Positions 4,152-36,328 of a stretch of 39,915 bases of DNA are shown piece by piece. Within the stretch, counting starts at the first letter, position 1. Each line of letters begins with the position of its first letter. The notes beneath the pieces are model-generated. The model was given only the letters and a program-made list of their open reading frames with translations, had not been told where the DNA came from and did no database searches. This stretch comes from a virus. Location: the IMG/VR virus record IMGVR_UViG_3300044699_000092, positions 1 through 39,915 of that record; one strand, written 5' to 3'. Position numbers and translations under genes: made by a program.

Positions 4152-4455
4152 ATGGCAAAAATCATCCGACCGCGCGTCCCCTACCGCCCAATACCGCCAA
4201 ACCCGAACTTTAATCCCCCGCCGCTCAGCCGCATCCGCGAGCGTGCCCTGGCCGGCGAAGTCGATCAACCCGGCGTCCGATTTCGTGGCGCGGTTCGACG
4301 TTGTGCCTGCGGCGCGCACAAATTCGGCTTTGGCGAAAGCTTTATCGACATGCAAACCGGTGAAATCACCCCCGCAAAGGTGCGCCGAGTGTCGCCAACC
4401 TTACCACCGACGTCACCCCGCAAACCCAAAGCAGACGGTCGCCCAACATGAATGA
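4152..4455 (+). CDS. Small zinc-ribbon-like protein (frame break)
   Basis: It starts MAKIIRPRVPYRPIPPNPNF at the ATG at 4152, with AGGAG seven bases upstream; a longer frame from 4038 would pass through the repeat cluster and has no such site. The proline-rich N-terminus is followed by 'RCACGAHKFGFGE' and, after a one-base shift near 4380, 'CAECRQPYHRRHP'. The two cysteine pairs then make a CxC...CxxC zinc site, which supports the shift. The shifted frame stops at 4455, overlapping the next start (4448). About 101 residues. Probably nucleic-acid binding; exact role unknown. Confidence 0.55.
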
Positions 4456-4590
4456 CCTGGATAAAATCGTTCGCAGCCTTCCCAGCACCCGCAGTCTACT
4501 GCTAGTATTTGCGCAAATAGACCAATACAAGCGGTTGGAGAAGCGCAGGTTTAGACGGTTGCTCAACACGCTCAAGGCGGACACCGATGG
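4448..4590 (+). CDS. Small hypothetical protein, end uncertain
   Basis: It begins MNDLDKIVRSLPSTRSLLLV at 4448 and continues through a helical, arginine-rich segment (EKRRFRRLLNTLKADTDG). The frame stays open well beyond this point, but the following residues read like the start of the next gene in a wrong frame. I therefore place its end near the ATG at 4587, with a suspected indel hiding the true stop. No domain is recognised. Confidence 0.45.
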
Positions 4591-8491: not shown

Positions 8492-8818
8492 ATGCCCTAC
8501 GATCCGCGAATGCAGCAGCTGACCCGCATGGGCATCGGCATGCTGGGGCCGCAGGCTGGGCCGTTCGACCGCACCCAGCAGCCGCGCCAGTGGTGGGAGC
8601 AGCCGCCGCCGTCGCCGCAACAGCGGCCCGACGACAGCAACCCGTCCGGCCAGCCGGCCACCCAGCCGCCCAACACTGCCAAACCGCCGCCGAGCCTGTA
8701 CGACATGATGCTGAGCGTCGGCCGCATGACGCGCCCGCAATACGACCAGGCAGCCCGGCTCGGCCCGCTCGGATTTCTCGGCACGCTTGCCGGTTATTCC
8801 CAGGACAAGTACCGATGA
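8492..8818 (+). CDS. Proline/glutamine-rich hypothetical protein
   Basis: A 108-residue protein starting MPYDPRMQQLTRMGIGMLGP. A proline- and glutamine-rich linker (residues 25-68) leads to a small helical C-terminal part (YDMMLSVGRMTRPQYDQAAR). It lies at the head of the rightward virion gene block and its stop overlaps the next start. Composition suggests a flexible virion or assembly protein. There is no family match. Confidence 0.6.
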   Translation: MPYDPRMQQLTRMGIGMLGPQAGPFDRTQQPRQWWEQPPPSPQQRPDDSNPSGQPATQPPNTAKPPPSLYDMMLSVGRMTRPQYDQAARLGPLGFLGTLAGYSQDKYR

Positions 8819-9167
8819 GCGACACCTATTCGACGGAAGAGACAGCGCCGGGCGATGCGACCGAGCCAGGCGAAATGTCGGAGCCGGGCGAGGGCAAGAA
8901 GCAGTCGCAGCAGGAGGCCAACTATCCGCGAGGGCAACCCGCAGCGCAGTTGCGGCCTGTGCGGCCACTTCGACAGCAAGGGCCACAGCTGCGACGTGGT
9001 CGAGGGCGATATCTCGCCCTATGGGTTCTCCAATCTCTATCTGCGCCAAGGACAATCCGTTCCGCACCGGCGAGAGGGAAGGCTTCAAGGGCGGCACCAA
9101 GGTCGCGGTGGTTGCTCCTGCGGGGCCGGCCGCGCTGCGCATCGGCCGCAAACGGTATGGCGCATGA
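8815..9167 (+). CDS. Cysteine-cluster phage protein (frame breaks)
   Basis: It begins MSDTYSTEETAPGDATEPGE, an acidic N-terminus. A shift near 8930 gives 'CGLCGHFDSKGHSCDVVEGD' followed by ISPYGFSNLYC, where the last cysteine needs another shift near 9045. The C-x2-C-x8-C...C arrangement with a G-x-I-x-P-x-G motif resembles a small phage protein class that looks like a minimal high-potential iron-sulfur or zinc fold. The final part reads RTGEREGFKGGTKVAVVAPA. The stop overlaps the next start as ATGA. The metal content is inference. Confidence 0.5.
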
Positions 9168-9424
9168 GAGCGCTTGTGTTCAGCGTCGTGTTGCTCGTGC
9201 TTATGGCCATACCGGCCAATGCCGGCGTTTATAGCTATCAATGTGACGAGGATATTGTTTTCGTTGTCGAGTGGCCAAATCGCTATGATTTCTTGATGCG
9301 CGATCCGAAGACCGGCAGGGACAATAAAATCCGCCCGGAAGACAAGCGGATTAAATTCATCCACAAGTCTTATACGTTGTCCAAGGACGGAAAAGAGTGT
9401 GAACAGCGCGGCTATGAGCATTGA
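9164..9424 (+). CDS. Small secreted protein, probable paralogue of the 8118 product
   Basis: MRALVFSVVLLVLMAIPANA is a signal peptide with an ANA cleavage site. The mature domain starts VYSYQCDEDIVFVVEWPNRY, then DFLMRDPKTGRDNKIR, and ends in a charged tail with a second cysteine. The Y/W-Q-C ... VFVV ... DFL pattern is shared with the protein at 8118-8480. It is 86 residues long, intact, and coupled to the preceding gene by ATGA. Export to the periplasm or cell surface is likely. The role is unknown; superinfection exclusion or hydrolase inhibition would fit two exported small proteins. Confidence 0.65.
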   Translation: MRALVFSVVLLVLMAIPANAGVYSYQCDEDIVFVVEWPNRYDFLMRDPKTGRDNKIRPEDKRIKFIHKSYTLSKDGKECEQRGYEH

Positions 9425-12009: not shown

Positions 12010-12870
12010 TTAGGCGGCCCCGATGTCGTCGGTGATCGCGCCGCATCCGATCATAACGCGCCGGAACCCGAGGGGGATACAAGCCAGCCGCAGCAAGACC
12101 CCAACGCGCCCCGCCCGCCAGGCGACGTCCCCAATCAAATCATTGGATCGCGCGGCCAATATCACAACAGCAATGCCGACCGTCCGGGCAATCCGTATTA
12201 CCAGAACAACCCGCTTAATTATCCGCAAGGCCGACCTGGCGTTGATTTCCGCACCGCTCGGCAAGCCGGTATCGAACCGGCGTTCCGCACTGGCGACGTA
12301 AACGTGCGTGATCTGGATGCGCGATTGATCGAGAACCTCAACCGGTATCTCGCTGATCCGCGCACGCCGCAATTTGTCCGTGACGAACTGACCGCGACTA
12401 GCGGATGGCGTTCGGCAGATCGCCAAGGCGCACATGAGCATTTGATGGACGAGCGCACATCGCAACAAAGCGTTTGGGCGCGCTATCATGGCGGTCGCGA
12501 TGGGCCAGCCGCTCCGCCTGGCAGGTCAAATCATGCACCCGGCCGGGCGATAGATTTCCAGCCTGGTCGGGCGCTGGATCATCTTCGCGCCCATGCTAGG
12601 GAGTTTGGCCTCGAAACGCTCGGATATAGAAACGGCCGGCCCTTTGACGTCCCTCACATCCAACTGCCGCGGAGCGCTGGCGTTAACCGGCCGAGTGAGC
12701 AAGAGCGACAGGCACAAAGGGCCCTCGATGCGCAAAACCGACAAATTGCGATCGATCTTGGCCTGTTAGGTGGCAGGCCAACTCAGCAAGCGGCGGTGCC
12801 GCTGCCGCAGGGCCGGCCGAGCGATGCACCGCAGGTGCAGGAAGCCCAGCCCCTGCCGCCGACCGACACG
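12010..12870 (+). CDS. M15-type peptidoglycan peptidase section of the giant virion protein
   Basis: This stretch is open in one frame. A disordered proline/asparagine-rich lead (PNQIIGSRGQYHNSNADRPG) is followed by a domain with 'TSGWRSADRQGAHEHL', SNHAPGRAIDF and, further on, DVPHIQLP. S-x-H-x-x-G-x-A-x-D plus a later P-H is the zinc-ligand signature of M15 D-Ala-D-Ala or endolysin-type carboxypeptidases (two His and one Asp). The domain should cut peptide cross-links in peptidoglycan during DNA entry. There is no start codon with an RBS before it, so it is probably internal to the large protein. Confidence 0.65.
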
Positions 12871-14518
12871 CCCGCCGCGTACTGGACGGCATCGGCCGCA
12901 AACCGCCTGATCGTCCATTGCACGCGGCCGCCGCGGCGATATTCCCGATCGATATTCCGCCGCAGCCGATCGAGACGCGAACCACCCCGCCTATACCGGC
13001 GGCGCGCACAGAACGTGCGGGAATGCAGTTCGCCAAGTTCCTGGCGGACATGTTGCAGAGAAGTGGAAATACACCCACCAGCAGAGAGGAGGGGCAAAAA
13101 GCATTGAGTGCGCTGGCGCAAGAACTGGCCAAGGCAGGGTACCCCGCCAGCGCTGCGCAGAAGACGATCACTGAAACAGCGACGCAGGGATCGATCAAGG
13201 CGGGCTATGGCCCCAATAGTGCAGCCAACATATTCGGCAGTGTCACCCGCGCCATCAACGAGATGGTTGGCACGGCGATGCAGGGCTACCATGCGGGCAA
13301 AATGCCAGAGACGCAGGGCCCGCCGGCGCCGGTCGCGCCCGGCCGCCAAGGCGCGCTTCCATTTGGCCAACAATTCGCGGAGGCGCCCGGATCGCTGTTC
13401 GATATGCTCTCGGGTGCGCTCTCGCAGCTCAATCCGATCAGCACGGCCGAGGCGCGCGGCGCGCGGGGGCCATCGCGCGATGAGGTCGCCGCTATCCAGC
13501 TTGCCAGACAAGGCGGCAGCATGGGTGGGCAACCTGGCCGCAGTGTTGTCGGTGATAAGATATTTACGTTCTACGCCCCCGGTGCGAGCGGAGCAAAGGG
13601 CACAGAGGGGCCCAACGTCGGGTCAAAAGGAAATCCGCTGTTTGGCCTCGATGATGTTCGAGGCGGCCGATCGGATGTTGTTTCGCTTGCTGGTCATCCC
13701 AGTCAATTTGGTCCAAACGGTATTTATCGGAAACATTACCTATACGAGCCGATCGATGGCCAAAACCCATACTCTAAATAATGTTTGGGGCCGCGTTGAT
13801 GATACCGGCAGCGAATTCAGAGGAGGCAAGAACCCCGATCTAAATCAATTCGACATCGCCGTTGGTGATTTCAGCAAGGGTGGAACGATACGAGCGCAGG
13901 CAAATTTGTCAGCGGCAACAAGGTTGATGCCGTTCCGGGCCGCGGCATCGGCTCCGACGTTGCGCGCCTCGCCGGATGTATCATTGCCGGCGATTGCAGC
14001 GCAGCCGCCAGGCGTGCCGGTCGAGGCCCGCGCCGAGGGCGGAGCCAGTTAGAGAAGATCGGCCATATCTCGTTGGCGAGGAGGGCCCGGAATACTTCGT
14101 TCCGGATCAGCCGTGGCACGATCTTTCCCCATATGCCGCAGCCGGGTAAGGGCGATCCCAACATCGGCCGCTGGCCTAAGGTGCCGGCGCCGGATTATCC
14201 CGGCCGCTATCGGGTCTGGAAGGCGCAATCAAACAGCGGACAGCGCGCGGCACAGAATGCCGAACCCACCCTGATGGACCTGATCGACAGCGGGCGCTTG
14301 CGGCTCAATGCGGCCAACTGGCAGCGAATGCTCAGCGATCCGGCGCTGATCGCGCTGGGACAGTCGCCGTGTCGAGGATCGTCAGACACCATCGGACTAC
14401 GGCCCATCGGATATTCCCCGCGATCGACCGAACCCCGAATGAGTTGTCACAGCAACTCGGCTATGACGCCATCCGTAGGCCGCGGCCCACCGTGAATATC
14501 GGCCGCCAGCGCTACTAA
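12870..14518 (+). CDS. 3D-domain (lytic-transglycosylase-like) and C-terminal section of the giant virion protein
   Basis: The frame reads IFPIDIPPQPIETR, then a helical stretch (GMQFAKFLADMLQRSGNTPT). A domain follows with GDKIFTFYAPGASG, GNPLFGLDDVRGG and, after a shift near 13775, VWGRVDDTGSEFRG plus FDIAVGDF. The conserved aspartates match the 3D domain (double-psi barrel) of MltA-like transglycosylases. After shifts near 13890 and 14050 comes YLVGEEGPEYFVPDQP with GTIFPHMPQPGKG, the conserved C-terminal motif of tape-measure-type proteins. It ends LGYDAIRRPRPTVNIGRQRY at 14518 after more shifts near 14370 and 14440. Probable role: cell-wall cutting and DNA ejection. Confidence 0.6.
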
Positions 14519-15530: not shown

Positions 15531-17086
15531 GTGCGCTACGTTGCCGAGCTGCCGAAAGTGCTCACGAAGGAGGAGTGGATCAGGAAGTACGGAGTTCCTG
15601 ACACACTTGAATTGACGGCACTGCCGGCACCGGGCAACGGCAATGGACGCGCAAACTGAGCAAGTAAAACCATCTGGTCGCCCGGCGGCAACTTCGCGCA
15701 GTGGGCCCTGCTCGAATGTCCCGTGTTCGAGGTGTTCTTCGGCGGCGCCCGCGGCGGCGGCAAGACCTGATGGCGTGCTCGGCGAGTGGATGGTTCACGC
15801 CGACGCATACGGCATCAATGCGTCGGGTTGATGCTGCGGCGCACCCGCACCGAACTGATGGACACGGTCGAGCGCTCGCGGATGATCTACGGGCCGTTGA
15901 AATGGAGCTACAACGAGCAGGAGAAGACATGGCGCGATCCCCACGGCGCCCGGCTCAAGTTCAGCTATCTGGAGCGCGACGCCGACGCCGAGCTTTATCA
16001 GGGCCACAGTTACTCCAGGCTTTACGTGGAGGAGGCGGGCAACTTCCCGTCGCCTGCCCCTATCTTCAAGCTGTTTGCGACCTTGCGGAGTGGATCAGGT
16101 GTGCCGGTTGGGATCCGGCTAACTGGCAACCCGGGCGGTCCTGGCCACCAGTGGATAAAGACGCGCTACATTGACCCGGCGCCGCTCGGCAACAAGGTGA
16201 TTACCGACGCCGTCACAGGATTGCAGCGCGTTTTCATCCCGTCGAAGGTTGGCAACAACCAGTTCATCGACGTGGAGGCATACAAGCAGCGGCTGCGGTC
16301 GTCAGGATCGAAGGAATTGGTGCAGGCGTGGCTCGATGGTGACTGGTCGGTCACGCTGGGCGCGTTCTTCGACTGCTGGGACACCTCCCGGCATGTGATC
16401 CCGCCGTTCGAGATCCCGAAGGGCTGGATGCGGTTCCGCTCGATGGACTGGGGCAGCGCTTCACCGTTCTCGGTCGGCTGGTGGGCGATCGCCTCGGACG
16501 AGTGGCAGGTGCATGGCCGCATCATCCCGCGCGGCTGCATGGTGAGATATCGCGAGTGGTACGGCTGCCGGCCAGGCGAGCCCAATGTCGGCTTGAAGCT
16601 GCATGCCGGCGAGGTTGGCAAAGGAATTATGTCGAGGGAAAAGGACGAGGAAATATCCTATGGCGTGCTCGATCCTTCGGCTTTTGCCGAGGATGGTGGG
16701 CCGTCGATCGCCGAGCGCATGGGCACCGACACCGGCGGCAAGATCTGGTTTCGCAAGGCCGACAACAACCGGGTGCGGGTGATGGGCCACCTCGGCGGCT
16801 GGGATCAGATGCGTGCGCGGCTGGTCGGCAACGACGACGGTCACGCCATGCTGATGGTGTTCTCGACCTGCACCGATTTCATTAGAACCGTTCCATTTTT
16901 GCAACACGATCCCGACCGGCACGAAGATGTCATGACCGATAGCGAGGACCACGCCGCCGACGAGGCCCGCTATGCCTGCATGTCGCGGCCGTGGGTAGCG
17001 GTGAAAGAGCCGCAAAAGCCGGCCGACGTGTCGGGCTACGAGGTGTATCGCAAGAGCACTGCGCCGAGGACTGGAAGCAATTCTAA
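15531..17086 (+). CDS. terL: Terminase large subunit (several frame breaks)
   Basis: The DNA packaging motor ATPase and nuclease. The probable start is GTG at 15531 (RYVAELPKVLTKEEWIRKYG). Walker A is FFGGARGGGKT at 15735-15767, followed at once by a false stop (15768-15770) that needs a one-base correction. A long intact stretch follows from about 15830 (GLMLRRTRTELMDTVERSRM), with Walker B-like RLYVEEAGNF, then the nuclease-domain motifs SMDWGSASPFS and GVLDPSAF. The C-terminus needs a shift near 17060 to end AEDWKQF at 17086. Breaks are near 15650, 15768, 15825 and 17060. Corrected size is about 518 residues. Confidence 0.9.
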
Positions 17087-17095
17087 TCGCTACAC

Positions 17096-17114
17096 CGTGA
17101 CGATTAGCGTCACG
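17096..17114. repeat. Hairpin after the terminase gene
   Basis: CGTGACG-ATTAG-CGTCACG is a perfect 7-base stem with a 5-base loop, 9 bases after the terminase stop. An outer CTAATCG (17083-17089), overlapping the stop codon, can instead pair with CGATTAG at 17101-17107 or 17113-17119, so alternative folds exist. No T-run follows. It may serve RNA processing or weak termination. Confidence 0.45.
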
Positions 17115-17121
17115 ATTAGGA

Positions 17122-17206
17122 ATGAGCGCGGAGCACGCCGGGCGACGGTGTGGGTGTTCCCGGCAACGGGCCGGCCAGCCCGGCCCCGCGCCCGTCCCCA
17201 TCATAA
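17122..17206 (+). CDS. Possible very short protein (frame break), weak
   Basis: ATG at 17122 gives MSAEHAG and, after a one-base shift, GDGVGVPGNGPASPAPRPSP with a stop at 17204-17206. The product would be about 27 residues, proline- and glycine-rich. There is no good RBS and no family. It may be nothing more than leader sequence for the next gene. Confidence 0.25.
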
Positions 17207-17218
17207 CAGGGGCTGCCA

Positions 17219-17414
17219 ATGCCGCCAGTCAGCCAGGCGCAGCGGGCGGCGATGTACGCCGCGGCCGCCGGGCAAATCCACGCTCGGCATTCCGAAAAAG
17301 GTTGGCAAAGAATTCGTCGCCGCCGATGAGGGCGGCAAGCTGCCGGCCAAGGCCAATCCCAACAAGAAAAAGCCGAAACTGCGGATCGGCCGGCAAACCT
17401 ACGGCGAGGATTGA
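17219..17414 (+). CDS. Small conserved phage protein, MPPVSxAQ type (frame break)
   Basis: It starts MPPVSQAQRAAMYAAAAG at 17219 after CAGGGG. A shift near 17272 gives KSTLGIPKKVGKEFVAAD, a lysine-rich tail (NKKKPKLRIGRQ) and the end TYGED. The pair of motifs S-x-A-Q-x-A-A-M-x-A-A and STLGIPKxVGxxFVxAD is one I recognise from a small, basic, uncharacterised protein near portal genes in alphaproteobacterial phages. Corrected length is about 65 residues. Confidence 0.65.
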
Positions 17415-17418
17415 AATC

Positions 17419-17739
17419 ATGTCAGTGGTGGAAAAGTTCGCGGCATTTGTCGGCTCGCTGTCGCCCGATGAGCAGGGCCAGGTGATGCCGCTGATGATGT
17501 CCTACATGAAAGGCAATCTCGGTGCCGGCATGCAAGGACCGTCGATGGGCGGCCCTGATGCGCCGCCACCCCCTGCCGGCCCCGATGCCGGCGGCCCTCC
17601 TGGCGCTGTATCGGCGGTTCCTCCGGGTACGGCGCCAGGACCGGCCCCGTTGCCGCCGCCGCTGCCCGGCCTGCAGCCTGGCGGGCTGATGGGGCGGCCG
17701 CCGCTGCCGCCGACGCAAATCGGCAACAAGGCATATTGA
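17419..17739 (+). CDS. Proline/glycine-rich protein upstream of portal
   Basis: A 106-residue protein. The first 35 residues (MSVVEKFAAFVGSLSPDEQG...) form helices; the rest is almost entirely proline, glycine and alanine (GPDAPPPPAGPDAGGPPGAV). It is intact in one frame and ends one base before the portal start. It is probably a disordered head-assembly or packaging accessory. No homologous family is recalled. Confidence 0.65.
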   Translation: MSVVEKFAAFVGSLSPDEQGQVMPLMMSYMKGNLGAGMQGPSMGGPDAPPPPAGPDAGGPPGAVSAVPPGTAPGPAPLPPPLPGLQPGGLMGRPPLPPTQIGNKAY

Positions 17740-17740
17740 A

Positions 17741-19788
17741 ATGACGGTTTCCAACGTCACCAATTTCACCGGCTACAGTTCGGCCACGCGCAGCGGCTCG
17801 GTCGGCCGCTCGCCGGTCACCGACGATCCGCGCACGGGCGAGGACGATCAGGGTTTCTGGCCGCTCTCCAAGCTGGTGCTGGCCTACACCACGTATCTCG
17901 ACAGCAAGAGCCTGGAAATACAGGAGCAGCAGACCGCACGACGCTATCGCCACGGCGCGCAATGGACATCGGACCAGATCAAGACCTTCAATCTGCGGAA
18001 ACAGCCGGTCGTCACCTACAACAAGATCGGCCCGAAGGTGGACGGCATTGTCGGGACGGTTGAGCGGCTCAAGCAGGATCCCAAGGCATTTCCGCGCTCA
18101 CCGCAACATCAGGCCGGCGCTGATCTGGCGACCGCGGTGCTGCGCTATTTGATGGACAATAACAACTGGAACGCAATCTCGCCGTTTGTATCCGAAGCAG
18201 CGGCGGTGGATGGCCTGGGTGGGGTTGAGATCGATCTCAAAGCAGTGCCGCAAACGGTGCAATCGCAGCACGGCACACCACAGCAACAACCTGACTACGA
18301 CATCATGTTTGGACCCGTCGATAACGACGGGTTTTTTTATGACCCGCGTTCGTTCAAGAACGATTTTTCCGATGCGCGCTATCTCGGCGTCGGCAAGTTC
18401 GTGGACGAGGAACAGCTGATCGAAATGCTGCCGGGAATGGAAGAGGACATCAAGGCCGCCTGCGACGGCAATACCGAATTGATGTCGAATTCCGACCGCG
18501 ACAACCGATGGTTCGCGACCAATGGCGATTTCAAACAGGTCCGGCTGGTGGACTGCTGGTATCGATCGCGCGGCGGCTGGAAGTGGGCGCTCTATACCGG
18601 CTCGAAAATATTGATGCAGGGTGTGTCGCCGTTCGTTGACGAACTCGACCAGCCGATCAGCAAGTACATCATGTTTTCGGCCTGCGTCGATCATGATGGC
18701 GATCGCTACGGTTTTCCGCGCAATCTGATATCGCCGCAGGACGAGGTCAACCAGCGCCGATCGAAGGGGCTGCACGAACTCAACAACCGCCGCATCGTCG
18801 CCACCAAGGCGGCGGTGGCAGACGCCAATATCGAGGCGCTGCGGCGCGAGGCCGCGCGCGCGGACGGCATTGTGCTGCTCAACACCAGCCTGGACGACCT
18901 GCGCTTCGATGATCAGGCCAAGCAAGCGGCGGTGATGGGGCAGCTTGAGTTTATGCGCGATGCGGCAATGGAAATCGAAAAATTTGGCCCCAACTCGGCA
19001 ATGATCGGCGGCGATGCGGCGAGCAGCGGATCGAGCGGCCGCGCCATTGCGCTGTTGCAGCAGGCCGGCCTGGCCGGGCTCGGGCCATACATGTTCAATT
19101 GCGCGGCTTCAAGATGCGGCTGTACCGCGCGCTGTTCTGCGCGGCGCAGAAATACTGGACCAATCAGCGCTGGATCCGGGTGACCGACGCCGAGGGCGAG
19201 CCGCAATTCGTGGAAATCAACGCAATGCTCAACGGCCCGGATGGCCAGCCGACGGGGATGATGCGCAACGCCATCGGCGAATTGGACGTTGACATCATCC
19301 TCGACGAGGGCCCCGACACCATCACGCTGATGCAGGATACCTATGAGGCGATTTCGCAGGCGCTGCCGGCAGTGGCGCCGATGCTGTCGCCGGCGGCGGC
19401 GAAGGCGGTAATGGGCGTGCTGATTGAGACCTCGCCGTTGCCGGCCGATGTGAAGAAGAAATTCCGCGACGCCGACCAACAGCAAGCGCAGCAGCCCGAT
19501 CCGAAGCAGCAGGAAGCCGCGGCCAAGCTGTTGCTGCAGCAGCAGGAGGCGGCGGCGCGCATTGCCAGCGATAAGCAGAACGCGCAGTCGCAGTTGGAGA
19601 TCAAGCAGGCGGCTGCGGCAGCGGAAATCCAGATCAAGCGCGAGGCGGCCGCCAACGAGATCGCGATCGAGCGCGACAAGGCGCACAACGCCATGCAGCT
19701 CGAGCTATTCAAGGCCGGCAAGCAAGCGGAACTGCAGCAGCGTGAAGCGGAACTGCAGGTCGCCAGCGGCCACAACATCGCTCCGTAA
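17741..19788 (+). CDS. Portal protein, P22-like (one frame break)
   Basis: The ring protein through which DNA enters and leaves the head and to which the tail adaptor binds. It begins MTVSNVTNFTGYSSATRSGS. Typical portal segments include 'RKQPVVTYNKIGPKVDGIVG', 'DNDGFFYDPRSFKNDFSDAR', GFPRNLISPQDEVNQRRSKG and ARADGIVLLNTSLDD. A shift near 19098 joins the body to the part starting RGFKMRLYRALFCAAQKYWT. The last 110 residues are alanine-, glutamine- and lysine-rich and form a long coiled coil (AAAAEIQIKREAAANEIAIE), as in the P22 portal barrel. Corrected size is about 682 residues, close to P22 gp1. Confidence 0.88.
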
Positions 19789-19906
19789 TCGTCACCGGCA
19801 ACGATACAGCCGGGCGTTCGGGTAGCGCACTTCATACCCGTTTCGCATCGTCCAGGCGACATTGGGCGTTTCGTAGTGCGGCCACGATACGGCCGAAGGA
19901 GAACCT

Positions 19907-20857
19907 ATGAGCACAGAACCAGCAGGCGGCACGATCAGTGGTAACAGTACCGACACCAACACCATCACTGATCAACAGCTATTCGACCATGCAGTAACCA
20001 CCCCTGATCCGGCACCGGCAGCACCATCTGGCGGAGATGAACGTCCTGATGCAATGCCGTCGCCGGGCCCGTCGTCAGCCGACGCGCCGGCATCGACACG
20101 GCCGGACCTGCAACAGCCGCAGCAGCAGCCGCGAACCCCGCAAGGGCAATTCGCGCCCAAGCCAAAGGCTGAGCAGCAGGCGCCGCAACAGGGGCACAAC
20201 GTACCGCTGGCGGAATTGCTGAAGGAACGCGACGCAAGGCAGAGGCTGGAAGCGCACGCGGCAGAATTGACGCGGGCGGTGATGGAGCTGCAACAGCGTT
20301 TCAACCCCCAGCAACCGCAGCAACCGCAGCAACCGCAAGGACCACAGACCATTTTTGATGATCCTGACACCTATCTTCAGCAGCGTGTCATGGAGCCCCT
20401 GCGACAAGAGGGGCAGATGTACATCATGAAGGTCAGGGATGATCTGAGCCGCGAGCAGGCGAACATGCAGTACGGCGCTCAAGAGGTGAACGCCGCGCTT
20501 ACAGCAGATCGCGCAATCCGGCACACCCCGCAAGGCAACTTCGTGTTCAATCAGATCATGCAGCACGGGCATCCTTACGGTCAGTTGGTACAGTGGCATC
20601 GGACCACCCGAATGCATGCAGCGATCGGTGCCGATCCACAAGCATGGTTGCAGCAGCAGCAGAAGACGTGGGCCGAGAACGAAAAGGTTCAGGACTACGT
20701 CGCTGAATTGCGCGCCAAGCGTCTGGCTCAGCAGGGTCGTCCGCAGAATGTCGTGCAATTGCCGCCGTCACTATCGTCGGTGCGGTCGTCATCCGGCCGC
20801 ATGGACAACGGCGGCGATCTGAGCAGCGCGTCGCTTTACGATTTCGCCACCAAGTAA
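19907..20857 (+). CDS. Scaffolding protein, probable
   Basis: A 316-residue, glutamine-rich, acidic protein starting MSTEPAGGTISGNSTDTNTI after GAAGGAG. A disordered proline-rich N-terminal third is followed by helical coiled coil (LLKERDARQRLEAHAAELTR; QQPQQPQQPQ) and a C-terminal helical part ending DLSSASLYDFATK. It lies between portal and coat genes, the classic place of the P22 scaffold, and has the expected composition. Scaffolds guide coat assembly and leave the head before packaging. The 118 bases before it hold no gene. Confidence 0.75.
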   Translation: MSTEPAGGTISGNSTDTNTITDQQLFDHAVTTPDPAPAAPSGGDERPDAMPSPGPSSADAPASTRPDLQQPQQQPRTPQGQFAPKPKAEQQAPQQGHNVPLAELLKERDARQRLEAHAAELTRAVMELQQRFNPQQPQQPQQPQGPQTIFDDPDTYLQQRVMEPLRQEGQMYIMKVRDDLSREQANMQYGAQEVNAALTADRAIRHTPQGNFVFNQIMQHGHPYGQLVQWHRTTRMHAAIGADPQAWLQQQQKTWAENEKVQDYVAELRAKRLAQQGRPQNVVQLPPSLSSVRSSSGRMDNGGDLSSASLYDFATK

Positions 20858-20881
20858 ACCGACCGTCCGTCCGATTGAAAC

Positions 20882-20904
20882 ACCCGCCGCAAGGCGGGTT
20901 TTTT
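20882..20904 (+). terminator. Rho-independent terminator after the scaffold gene
   Basis: ACCCGCC-GCAA-GGCGGGT followed by a run of T (20899-20904) is a canonical intrinsic terminator. It lies 25 bases after the scaffold stop and 36 bases before the capsid start, so the capsid is partly or wholly set apart from the upstream message, perhaps by partial read-through. Confidence 0.9.
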
Positions 20905-20939
20905 GTTGGCTGCGGTCATAGCAGAAAGGGCACACGGCC

Positions 20940-22088
20940 ATGGCCGTCTCCGACGTTCACAACAACAACAAGCTGATCAAGTTCACCCAGCAGATCAATC
21001 GCGAATGGGTGCGTGAGAACATGTTTAGCCCATACATGGGCGATGATCTCAACTCCATCATCCGCCGCCGCATGGAGCTTAAGGCTGGCGGCGAGGTGAT
21101 GAATATCCCGATTGTCTCGCGGCTGCAGGGGGTCGGCGTTTCCACCGGCCCGCTGGTCGGCAACGAGGACAAGATCGACGATTACGGCTATCGGGTGTGG
21201 ATCGAATGGGTGAGAAATGCCGTCGTCACCACCAAGGCCGAAATGCAAAAGGATAGCGCCGATATCTTCGGCGAAGCGAAACCATTGCTTTCGGATTGGC
21301 TCAACGAGGTTACCCGCGATGAGATCATCGCGGCATTGATGGCGCTGCCGACAGAAAGCCAGCCGGCGGCCGGCACGAGTTCGTGTAACGGCATCCAGTA
21401 CGACTTGAGCACGGCAGCACAACGCAAACACCTGGCGGCTCGATAATGTGGACCGCATCCTCTACGGCGCGGCCACGTCAAACTCGGCCACCGACCACGC
21501 CACCTCGCTGGCCAACGTGGACGCCACCGCCGACAAGTTCACGGCGGCCAATCTGTCGCTGCTCAAACGGGTGGCGATGGGGGCTAATCCGCGCATCAGG
21601 CCGTTTAAAACGCGCGACGGTTACGAGTATTTCGTCTGTTTCGCCGGGTTGAACACCTTCCGCGATCTCAAGGTCGATCTGCAGGTCGTGAACAAGGATG
21701 CGAGATCGCGCGAGGGCCGCGAGGTCAACGGCGCACCGGATAACCCGCTGTTCCAAGACGGCGACCAGATGTACGACGGCGTGATCGTCCGGCTCATCCG
21801 GAAATCTCGCTGTTCGTATCCAACGTCTGGACCTCGCTCAAGACTGCCGGCAACGGCGGCACCCGCGTGGAGCCGGTGTTCCTGTGCGGCCAGCAAGCGG
21901 TCGCGCTGGCCTACGGTCAAATGGCGAAGCCCACTTTTAGAAAAGAAGACGACTACGGCTTCGTGACCGGAACTGGAATTGAAGCAGCTTTCGGAGTAGG
22001 GAAAATTTTCAAGAAACATCCCAAGTCAGGCACCAAGCTGGTGCAATGGGGTGTCGCAACCGGGTTCTTCAACTCGGCGTCCGACTGA
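20940..22088 (+). CDS. Major capsid protein, DUF4043/N4-gp56-type (two frame breaks)
   Basis: It begins MAVSDVHNNNKLIKFTQQIN. Family segments are 'VGVSTGPLVGNEDKIDDYGY', WIEWVRNAVVTTKAEMQKDS, DIFGEAKPLLSDWLNE and PFKTRDGYEYFVCFAGLNTF. Shifts near 21425 and 21790 join three blocks; the last ends KLVQWGVATGFFNSASD. Corrected length is about 383 residues, normal for the family, which has the HK97 fold. It stands alone between a strong terminator and a structured RNA region, as expected for the most abundant protein. Confidence 0.85.
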
Positions 22089-34017: not shown

Positions 34018-34574
34018 ATGCAGCCATATCTTGCATTGATCACCCCGCTCGGCAGCGGTGGCCAGCCCGACCACGGCCTTCCGTGCCGCCATATCCCGTC
34101 CCACAGGCCGGAGGTTCCCAACACATCCGATCGCGCCCGGGGTCGGCTCCAGGCATCTGGGGTGGTGACACCTCCCTACGTCGACATCGGTGGGCCTGGG
34201 CAGCAACCCGGATGTCTCGCACCCGATTGCGCCGGTGGACGCCCTCCTGGCATCTGGGGCGGGTGCGCCTACTTACCCTGACATCGGCGGTACCGGGGGC
34301 CGCAGCCGATCCCGACGCCGCCGATCTATCTGCCGCCGGGGTTCCTTCCGGGGCTGAAGCCGACGCACCCGATCTACATTCCGCCGAGCATCTGGCCGTC
34401 ACCTGGGGTGCCGACGCATCCGATCGTGCTGCCGCCGCCCGGTACGGATGAGAAGCCGGAAGTGTTGGAAAAAATTGGGATGTGAAGACGGCTTGGTCGG
34501 AGCAGACCGGCTGGGTTGTTGCGATCGTGCCCTCCGAGGAACACGAAGGCGTGCCGACGCCGTCTAAATTTTGA
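34018..34574 (+). CDS. Proline-rich HPI-repeat phage protein (frame breaks)
   Basis: It starts MQPYLALITPLGSGGQPDHG after AGGAG. Blocks are THPIAPG, GSNPDVSHPIAPVDALLASG, IPTPPIYLPPGFLPGLKPTH, PIYIPPSIWPSPGVPTHPIV and LPPPGTDEKPEVLEK, then a C-terminal small domain VKTAWSEQTGWVVAIVPSEE. Repeated HPI/PIYxPP units followed by a WVV tail define a proline-rich protein common in podoviruses of proteobacteria. It is probably extended and virion-linked. Corrected length is about 186 residues; about six breaks. A terminator follows at 34668. Confidence 0.6.
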
Positions 34575-34667
34575 GGAACTTGGGGACCGATCAGTCGGAC
34601 CCTCAAGTCGATCATAGAACCTTGACCCTCGGATCAGTTTCCTTCGATTTGCTGGCCCGAGGTTACT

Positions 34668-34693
34668 GGGCGCCAACCCGGCGCCCTTTTTTT
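34668..34693 (+). terminator. Rho-independent terminator between virion and lysis genes
   Basis: GGGCGCC-AACCC-GGCGCCC followed by seven T (34687-34693). It ends the long virion transcript. Only ten bases later comes the ATG at 34704, the original-looking start of the amidase gene. Confidence 0.9.
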
Positions 34694-34703
34694 GGAGCAC
34701 GCC

Positions 34704-34754
34704 ATGAAAGTCGTGATCAGCGCTATTTCTAGTCCCTGTTCTTTTTCCATCTGA
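34704..34754 (+). pseudogene. Severed 5' end of the amidase gene
   Basis: GGAG and the ATG at 34704 encode MKVVISA, the same opening as the intact amidase at 35341 (MLKVVISAGHSS). After AAAGTCGTGATCAGCGC the sequence departs into unrelated DNA and stops at 34754. The two copies use different codons (GTC/GTG/ATC/AGC against GTT/GTG/ATT/TCT), so the second start is not a simple duplication. It most likely arrived with the inserted HNH gene. Confidence 0.65.
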
Positions 34755-34762
34755 AGGGCCGT

Positions 34763-35253
34763 CTATTTTTTGTTTTGCTCGCTTGGTGTGGCCCAGCGAA
34801 CATTTCTCGGGAGCATAGGGGCCCATTCATTGTTAATGTCGATCAATCGAACGACCGGCAGGACATCGGCCCATGTCAGAAAGAAATTCTCATAGCTAGT
34901 CACCCAGCGGCTACAAACTGTGATGCCGCGTCCGCCATATTTGGCAAAGTCTTTATTGCAAGGGTTTTATGCAGCGTTCGCGCAGGCCTCTCCATGCTCG
35001 ATATTCGCGCGATGCTTGTCTATCTCCGTATCACCGTGCGTTCTATTTGCTTTCCCTCTTTGCCTAATAAGTTCAAGCTTAAGACAACCGCACGACTGAG
35101 TGTTGCCTTGACGCAGAACATTGGCACTAACCGTGATTTCATTTCCACAGTTACAACGGCAGCGCCACAGTGGCCGCCCGTTTCCTTCGTCCTGCCATGT
35201 AAAAGGACAGTCAGGCGCGCATATCGATGTCCTGTGATATCAATGAGGCGCAC
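34763..35253 (-). CDS. HNH homing endonuclease inserted beside the amidase gene (frame breaks)
   Basis: Start GTG at 35253 with AGGAGG six bases upstream: RLIDITGHRYARLTVLLHGR. Shifts give LWRCRCNCGNEITVSANVLR with QGNTQSCGCLKLEL (a two-pair CxC/CxC zinc-like module), THGDTEIDKHRA, then NKDFAKYGGRGITVCSRWVT with YENF, and the end ENVRWATPSEQNKK-type (here RNVRWATPSEQNKK) with TAG at 34765-34763. The YGGRGI-x-V-C-x-R-W ... E/R-N-V-R-W-A-T pattern is that of free-standing phage HNH homing endonucleases. About 160 residues; breaks near 35155, 34980 and 34850. AT-richer than its surroundings and opposite to them in direction. Confidence 0.75.
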
Positions 35254-35340
35254 GGCAAACCTCCTGGAAAAGGTTGCTTGTGAAGTGGCGGCCGAACGTC
35301 TCACCGTCCGCCGCTGCGCATTCTAACCGAGAGGGTATCA

Positions 35341-36328
35341 TGCTCAAAGTTGTGATTTCTGCGGGCCACTCCTCCAAGTGTCGGGGGATGTCGTCGGAGT
35401 GCTGGACGAGGTGGACGAGGCGCGTCGGGTGGTCACTGCGGTGGCCGACAATCTGGCGGACGCCGGTGTTGATGTCATCACCTATTGGGACGACGTTTCG
35501 ACCGGAACAACAGGAGTGCCTCAAGCGCATCTGTGATTTTCACAACGCGCAGGGCGCGCATACGCTAGATGTGAGCGTCCATTTCAACGCCAGCAACGGC
35601 CAGGGCCACGGCTGCGAGGTGTTTTACACCTCCAGCGCCGGCAAGGAATACGCCAAGCGGATCGTCGACGCCATCTGCGATGCATCGGGCCTGACCAATC
35701 GCGGTGCGAAGGATGATGATGACATCGGCGGATTGTATTTCCTGTCGCACACCAACGAGGTTGCGGTGCTCATCGAGGTCTGCTTCGGGGACAATGAGCA
35801 AGACACGGTGACCTATTACGATGAATTCGACAACATCTGCGAGGCCATCAGCAACGCAATCGCAGACGAAGAAGGCATGGTCCCCGAACCTGAGCCGGAC
35901 GACGACGATGTGTTGTTTCAAGCGACCGGCACGTGCAGCACCTTCGGAGGCCCCGACGATCTCGGTGTGTCGGCATCGGAGGGCCTCGCCTTCATTTACG
36001 ACTACGACGAGGCGCCCTATCTGTTCCTGCCGAAGCAGCCGCCCGGGACCACGGGCCTCGCTCGGCGACTATCGCCCGACGTGTTCTATCTGGCATGTCG
36101 TTGGGACTATGACCGGACCAGTAAGCTGATGTTGAAGAATAGCGGCTACATGGCGCTGGTCACCGCCAAGAAAACTGGCATCAGCCGGCTGGCGCATCCG
36201 GCCGACTGGGGCCGCATGAGGAGCAGACCGGCAGAGCCGCGGACCTCTCGCCGGCACTGGCTGAAAGCCTCGGCGTCGATACTGATGACGTGGTCGAGGT
36301 GATCTATCCGTACCACGCACCGAGCTAG
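35341..36328 (+). CDS. Endolysin: N-acetylmuramoyl-L-alanine amidase plus RlpA-like barrel domain (frame breaks)
   Basis: It cuts the bond between muramic acid and L-alanine in peptidoglycan. Start 35341 after GAGAGGG. Amidase_3 motifs are KVVISAGHSS (first zinc His), SVHFNASNGQGHGCEVFYTS (second His) and VAVLIEVCFGDNEQD (catalytic Glu). A linker rich in D and E (residues ~180-200) leads to a C-terminal domain with GTCSTFGGPDDLGVSASEGL, ALVTAKKTGISRLAHPADWG and AADLSPALAESLGVDTDDVV, a double-psi barrel of the RlpA/expansin type. Breaks are near 35380, 35498 and 36215. There is no signal peptide, so a holin is expected. Corrected length is about 328 residues. Confidence 0.8.

Follow-up and report, generated by a model that had tools for sequence, protein, structure and literature searches.

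A phage HNH endonuclease cassette that probably brings a replacement start to a lysis amidase gene, with a predicted antisense RNA in its leader

Two openings of the amidase gene

Why should a phage lysis gene open twice, on both sides of an HNH endonuclease gene that reads in the opposite direction? This arrangement is found in the virus record IMGVR_UViG_3300044699_000092, which was analysed over its whole length of 39,915 nt (hereafter the window, to which coordinates refer unless another contig is named) and for which a DNA search gave no matches to named phages. On the plus strand, an intrinsic terminator (34668-34693; GGGCGCCAACCCGGCGCCC-T7, with seven G-C pairs, a loop of 5, and the T7 run) lies just upstream of a short piece of amidase sequence (34700-34723; CGCCATGAAAGTCGTGATCAGCGC), within which ATGAAAGTCGTGATCAGCGC (MKVVISA) opens with an ATG at 34704, 10 nt past the terminator end at 34693, and soon meets a stop codon. 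The HNH gene, which is of the PHROG 374 type, occupies 34763-35253 on the minus strand, with a GTG start at 35253-35251 and its 3' end near 34763. Beyond it, a second amidase opening (ATGCTCAAAGTTGTGATTTCTGCGGGCCAC) begins at 35340, reads ML-KVVISAGH, and has a ribosome binding site of its own (GAGAGGG, 35329-35335; recognized from the sequence, with a related leader in three other phages, namely L011, L219, and L020). Its first codons, ATG-CTC-AAA-GTT-GTG-ATT-TCT (35340-35360), include an extra codon 2, as judged from comparison with other carriers of the HNH gene, and lead into an N-acetylmuramoyl-L-alanine amidase (Amidase_3, endolysin; 35340-36328) that matches PF01520 (2.7e-17) and PHROG 435 endolysin (1.7e-38). 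The opening after the terminator, the minus-strand HNH gene, and the new start with its own ribosome site had all been named in the original prediction and were recovered here, except that the HNH frame is broken several times in the window and that the new start lies at 35340, not 35341.

The HNH gene of the window is recognizable only across several minus-strand frames, and the amidase frame is broken near 35385-35395, 35500, and 36219. Because the portal (PHROG 156) and major head (PHROG 334) genes are likewise each split over two frames (window 15786-21963), the frameshifts in the HNH and amidase genes are probably assembly errors, and the contig is probably indel-rich and derived from error-prone reads. 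Pseudogenization of either gene was considered as a reading of these frameshifts and set aside, such breaks being uninformative where portal and head genes are split in the same way. In the same 15786-21963 region, the match to the terminase large subunit begins part-way into its profile.

The element is classed as a free-standing HNH endonuclease, whose nuclease activity is predicted from PHROG profiles. The protein gave no Pfam match and no PDB sequence match, and comparison of its structure model (pLDDT 88.5) with PDB folds gave no match either. The gene lies outside any intron or intein: it is on the strand opposite to the amidase, and no Rfam intron was detected in 34600-35500. A group I intron or another catalytic RNA around the HNH gene was also considered and rejected, the sole Rfam match being to PtaRNA1.

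The two openings have KVVISA in common and differ at 5 of 17 nt, in agreement with the earlier remark that they share protein but not codons. The first opening is identical at 23 of 24 nt to the native start of the HNH-less relatives L005, L006, and L007, and when these 24 nt were used as a query, the good matches among all loci fetched were amidase starts only, a resemblance beyond chance. Thus, by sequence comparison, it represents the start that the window's amidase lineage originally had, left behind as a stub, as had been proposed. The window belongs to an amidase clade of eight (100/100 support) whose other seven members are non-carriers; in five of these seven, the native start differs from the stub at 1-3 of 17 nt and from the new start at 4-7. 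The stub is also favoured in L003 (5 differences, versus 8 for the new start), and L004, which has a TCA serine, is the exception.

Relatives of the amidase were sampled as 17 viral ones first and then as 80 loci with alignment. The non-carriers have one amidase start each, which in most close relatives overlaps the stop of the upstream gene (..GFAP* / ATGA). In these empty alleles, AAAGTxGTxATCAGCGC runs directly into CGGGCACGGC, which supplies the original continuation of the stub that alignment of such relatives had been expected to reveal; L005, for example, reads ATGAAAGTTGTGATCAGCGCCGGGCACGGC from its start onward. A second opening within 900 nt upstream of the start, which in a relative lacking the HNH gene would speak against the original prediction, was found in none of the 66 HNH-less amidase loci, compared with two of the four carriers (the window and L020).

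The HNH leader, its predicted promoter and antisense RNA

A single sigma-70-like match is present in 34400-35500, against 0.6 expected: a predicted HNH promoter on the minus strand (35347-35320; consensus match), with a -35 box TTGAGC at 35347-35342, a spacing of 16 nt, and a -10 box TAGAAT at 35325-35320. The conserved RNA block described below ends with the -10 box, and the -35 box is complementary to GCTCAA, thus to the extra amidase codon 2; therefore, the amidase start codons would double as HNH promoter. TTGAAG-17-TATGAT occupies the corresponding place in a related element, L206 (consensus match, read by eye). We infer from these sequences that the extra codon 2 may be present because of its -35 role for the predicted HNH promoter.

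A block of approximately 75 nt that spans the HNH start and its ribosome site was aligned from 23 leaders of IMG/VR contigs; almost all of these leaders precede HNH genes, at different insertion sites. On the strand antisense to the HNH gene (window 35246-35327, plus strand), this block can be folded into a small hairpin with an anti-Shine-Dalgarno loop, followed by a long hairpin of 14 bp, and compensatory changes were found at 14 of the 24 pairs over the 23 copies. Paired cells amount to 96.2%, versus 86.1% in shuffled alignments and at most 48% with slid partners. The window leader matches the RNA model R2 at 64 bits (E 2.3e-11), the window copy being one of the 23 rows of that model. This copy folds weakly (z -0.7 and -1.7), its long stem being one base short, and is partly degraded.

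With the Rfam model RF01811 (PtaRNA1), which matches over its full length (1-72) at the HNH start, the window leader scores 19 bits, and the leaders of L011, L020, L024, and L032 score 26-31 bits, none of them above the gathering cut-off of 47 bits. PtaRNA1 loci were also found in Pseudomonadota genomes (two over the cut-off, L229 and L230), where they are antisense to ORFs of 70-79 aa and have the same layout as the HNH leaders; conversely, a model built from HNH leaders alone recovers L229, L230, and L234 at 6e-4 to 1e-5 (rough E-values). The HNH leaders share with PtaRNA1 the position antisense to start codon and ribosome site, the two hairpins, and covariation. On these comparisons, a conserved RNA with a defined structure, complementary to the beginning of the HNH gene, is predicted to be encoded in the leader; neither this RNA nor the -35 role of codon 2 was part of the original prediction. 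A search for a promoter that could drive the antisense RNA gave nothing of standard form, and the sole candidate, TGTGATATC, is a weak extended -10-like sequence within the first HNH codons, where coding confounds the signal.

Alternatively, the leader might act on the sense strand, as a hairpin in the HNH mRNA that sequesters the ribosome binding site in the manner of T4 I-TevI or Aeh1 mobE, a restraint that has been described for phage homing endonucleases (PMC2988022). We consider this unlikely, since each of the 23 copies folds better as antisense than as sense RNA (mean z -4.9 vs -1.7), conserved U-G and G-U pairs of the antisense RNA become A-C mismatches on the sense strand, and the layout of the leader equals that of PtaRNA1.

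The antisense RNA, which we prefer to a sense hairpin, may form a portable module that could also serve non-HNH genes, because copies of it precede an unrelated HNH family and an ORF of another kind. The former is a second PtaRNA1-like RNA at 9073-9157 of L242/L192 (IMGVR_UViG_3300032001_000081; PHROG 1872/826/59), and the latter is found at 5052-5191 of L197 (IMGVR_UViG_3300047089_000323), ahead of a 114-aa ORF without a PHROG match. In L025, two copies of the antisense RNA with an HNH gene lie within about 2 kb (2400-2537 and 4333-4478). When model R1 was run over 266 Bradyrhizobium-genus genomes, one match was obtained; this lone 52-bit match (L228; genome G042, C1:6909525-6909672) lies upstream of a non-HNH ORF of 176 aa.

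Other carriers and the origin of the new start

An HNH gene is located at the amidase start in three further phages (L011, L020, and L219). L011 has an intact gene of 179 aa at the same place (PHROG 374 match, 1e-64); the L020 protein is 82% identical to that of L011, to which the next-closest HNH proteins recovered show about 52% identity or less. At the DNA level, the HNH genes of the window, L011, and L020 are 74-79% identical (about 74% for the window gene against the other two), and the leader reaches up to 90%. L219 (IMGVR_UViG_3300009156_000290, 8713-9300) combines an HNH gene of only about 50% DNA identity with a leader that is 93% identical to that of L011, and its HNH gene appears to have been swapped under a constant leader, as if gene and leader were exchangeable. 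Beyond the window, exact leader patterns at the amidase site occur in the L011 and L020 contigs only, and L219 was found through its hairpin pattern. Among the 95 starts inspected, leader and extra codon 2 are present in 4/4 carriers and 0/91 others, the start reading ATG-CTC-AAA in the window, L011, and L219 and ATG-CAA-AAA in L020. The L020 stub, RVVISS, lies 634 nt before its new start (633 nt in the window), and the amidase bodies of the two are only 50% identical. No clear stub is kept in L011 and L219, and the left junctions vary between carriers.

Carriers occupy at least three separate positions when amidase bodies are placed on a maximum-likelihood tree, whose well-supported branches force at least three changes. 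Because the HNH gene, leader, and new start are common to carriers in different amidase clades, sequence and tree support the view that the three travel together between amidase lineages. Two features of homing elements are evident here as well, namely absence from intact target alleles (66 single-start amidase loci) and an element phylogeny unlike that of the host gene (polyphyletic carriers, with the HNH genes of three of them 74-79% alike).

The imported coding part is very short by this comparison, about codons 1-7 with an approximate edge: nucleotide identity between the window and L011 is 17/18 in codons 1-6 and falls to 11/27 in codons 7-15. If CTC is left out, codons 1-6 of the new start are also 14/15 identical to L005, and, given the conservation of the protein, these codons taken alone are weak evidence of import; the case for import is carried by the leader and the tree, together with the TCN serine and the additional codon. 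The leader, codon 2, and TCN serine shared across clades support the earlier proposal that the endonuclease arrived with flanking amidase sequence, whereas transport by homing and co-conversion is what we infer by analogy with double-strand-break repair homing, with co-conversion, by free-standing phage endonucleases (reviewed in PMC2988022). It is likely that a mobile free-standing HNH cassette entered the endolysin gene about seven codons in, bringing a replacement amidase 5' end and leaving the native start as a stub.

A similar pattern was observed at other genes. In L206/L241 (IMGVR_UViG_3300009826_000024, contig 46318-46401), a related cassette separates an endolysin gene from a small holin-like one (both identified by eye). 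Its left side retains ATGACTTCAAT (an MTS stub), and its right side reads GTG-CTG-ACTTCAATG, also given as GTG-CTG-ACTTCAATGGAC, by which M-T-S-M-D becomes M-L-T-S-M-D (MLTSMDK); an exact 10-nt repeat, TGACTTCAAT, flanks the cassette on both sides. HNH-less relatives of the L206 locus were searched for and none was found. In L192/L243 (contig 12300-13632), a diverged copy of the 3'-terminal 56 nt of the neighbouring gene stands beyond the HNH cassette, with a new ATG (0/200 shuffles). Flanking repeats clearly above shuffles were found, among the other elements, only in L192 and L206.

Such repeats raise the question whether a staggered or slipped insertion might simply have doubled the first amidase codons at the target site, the copies diverging in place and no foreign start being imported in the window lineage. 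The exact repeat in L206 would suit this, and so would the shortness of the window repeat (17 nt) and the fact that the differences between its copies leave the protein unchanged. However, what the right copies have in common (extra codon, leader, and ribosome site) is also found in carriers from other amidase clades, whereas the left copy resembles the window's own clade; divergence in place would give no reason for such likeness of the right copy to other carriers. Target-site duplication thus appears decidedly improbable.

Vertical inheritance of one old insertion by the four carriers, with loss in many relatives, would account for the likeness of position, leader, and start in all four of them. 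It is nevertheless very hard to reconcile with the tree, in which at least three changes are forced and 0% of bootstrap trees have a single one, and it needs many precise losses that would each have had to give back MK and, for the majority of close relatives, the stop/start overlap as well; moreover, a stub or second opening is present in 0/66 non-carriers. Finally, frameshifts in several essential window genes could suggest that the doubled start is a chimera or polishing error of an indel-rich contig, an explanation of next to no probability that is refuted, for the arrangement, by the intact HNH gene, leader, and new start in independent contigs from other metagenomes (L011, L219, and L020) and by the double opening of L020.

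Proposed mechanism and relation to known systems

For the import of a replacement start, the following mechanism may be proposed. The cassette would comprise the HNH gene, oriented away from the amidase, the antisense RNA, the HNH promoter, and the replacement amidase 5' end, the last consisting of a ribosome site, ATG, the extra codon, and about five native-like codons in frame with the resident body. The HNH protein would cut the start-proximal sequence of empty amidase alleles, and repair from a carrier would copy the HNH gene, antisense RNA, promoter, and replacement start together, with the resident amidase body kept from about codon 7 and the old start staying as a stub on the far side. 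After insertion, the amidase would be dependent on the new leader. The antisense RNA, from a putative promoter inside the HNH start, would pair with the HNH mRNA, hide its ribosome site, and block translation.

We give roughly even chances to the broader view that at least two unrelated phage HNH families share a portable type-I-antitoxin-like module, kin to PtaRNA1, that restrains the nuclease, and that certain members bring along a new 5' end for the target gene, so entering an essential lysis gene without destroying it. If true, this would be an antisense-controlled, self-repairing homing element. The locus offers a sequence-level view of how a selfish endonuclease can settle in an essential phage gene, with a spare start carried along. 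The covarying antisense RNA, which recurs with HNH genes at many insertion sites, links homing endonucleases to a plasmid antitoxin-like RNA and provides a testable answer to how such nucleases stay quiet, and the RNA model is a handle for finding further elements of this kind. No report of a PtaRNA1-like RNA with HNH genes was found in the open-access papers searched.

The leader RNA resembles PtaRNA1 (RF01811; plasmid-transferred antisense RNA, an Rfam antitoxin) in its length of about 75 nt, in the reciprocal profile matches, and in the order of its parts, namely start-codon complement, anti-Shine-Dalgarno hairpin, spacer, and long GC hairpin. It differs in score (19-31 bits in HNH leaders, under 47) and in its target, an HNH endonuclease and not a protein of 70-79 aa. 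We know of no sequence kinship between the HNH-leader RNA and the SymR, EcoRI, or CfrI antisense RNAs. In SymR/SymE and with the EcoRI reverse promoters, antisense RNA covers the 5' part of the toxin or nuclease gene, and the proposed hiding of the HNH ribosome site resembles the action of SymR on SymE (PMC3874152). The cyanophage antisense RNA CfrI lies next to the F-CphI homing endonuclease and, according to PMC5931967 (citing Millard 2010), is tied to psbA of one phage. Unlike the HNH-leader RNA, SymR, EcoRI, and CfrI have to our knowledge not been described as a conserved RNA recurring with many mobile HNH copies.

T4-like mob genes, such as mobE in Aeh1 (PMC2988022), are comparable as free-standing HNH genes that interrupt or border a phage gene, and in the co-conversion and restraint by RNA structure that we propose for the window. 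The T4 seg and mob genes include several promoterless cassettes and others under sense hairpins (PMC2988022), whereas the window cassette has a predicted promoter of its own, a predicted antisense RNA, and a replacement start for its neighbour. Mobile ORFs of fungal mitochondria (Allomyces atp6; Glomus atp6, atp9, cox2, and nad3) bring a foreign gene end with them (PMC3630166). There, as in our proposal for the window, a free-standing endonuclease gene lies inside the host gene, whose function at that end has been taken over by a foreign homologous end, with the native end still present as a remnant. In the fungal cases, however, the carboxy-terminus is replaced and the endonucleases are of the LAGLIDADG or GIY-YIG type, whereas in the window the 5' end of a lysis gene is concerned, the enzyme is an HNH protein, and the cassette lies on the opposite strand with an antisense RNA. 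With an apparently foreign gene end fused in frame and the native one left, at the 5' instead of the 3' end, the phage case would mirror the hybrid genes of fungal mitochondria.
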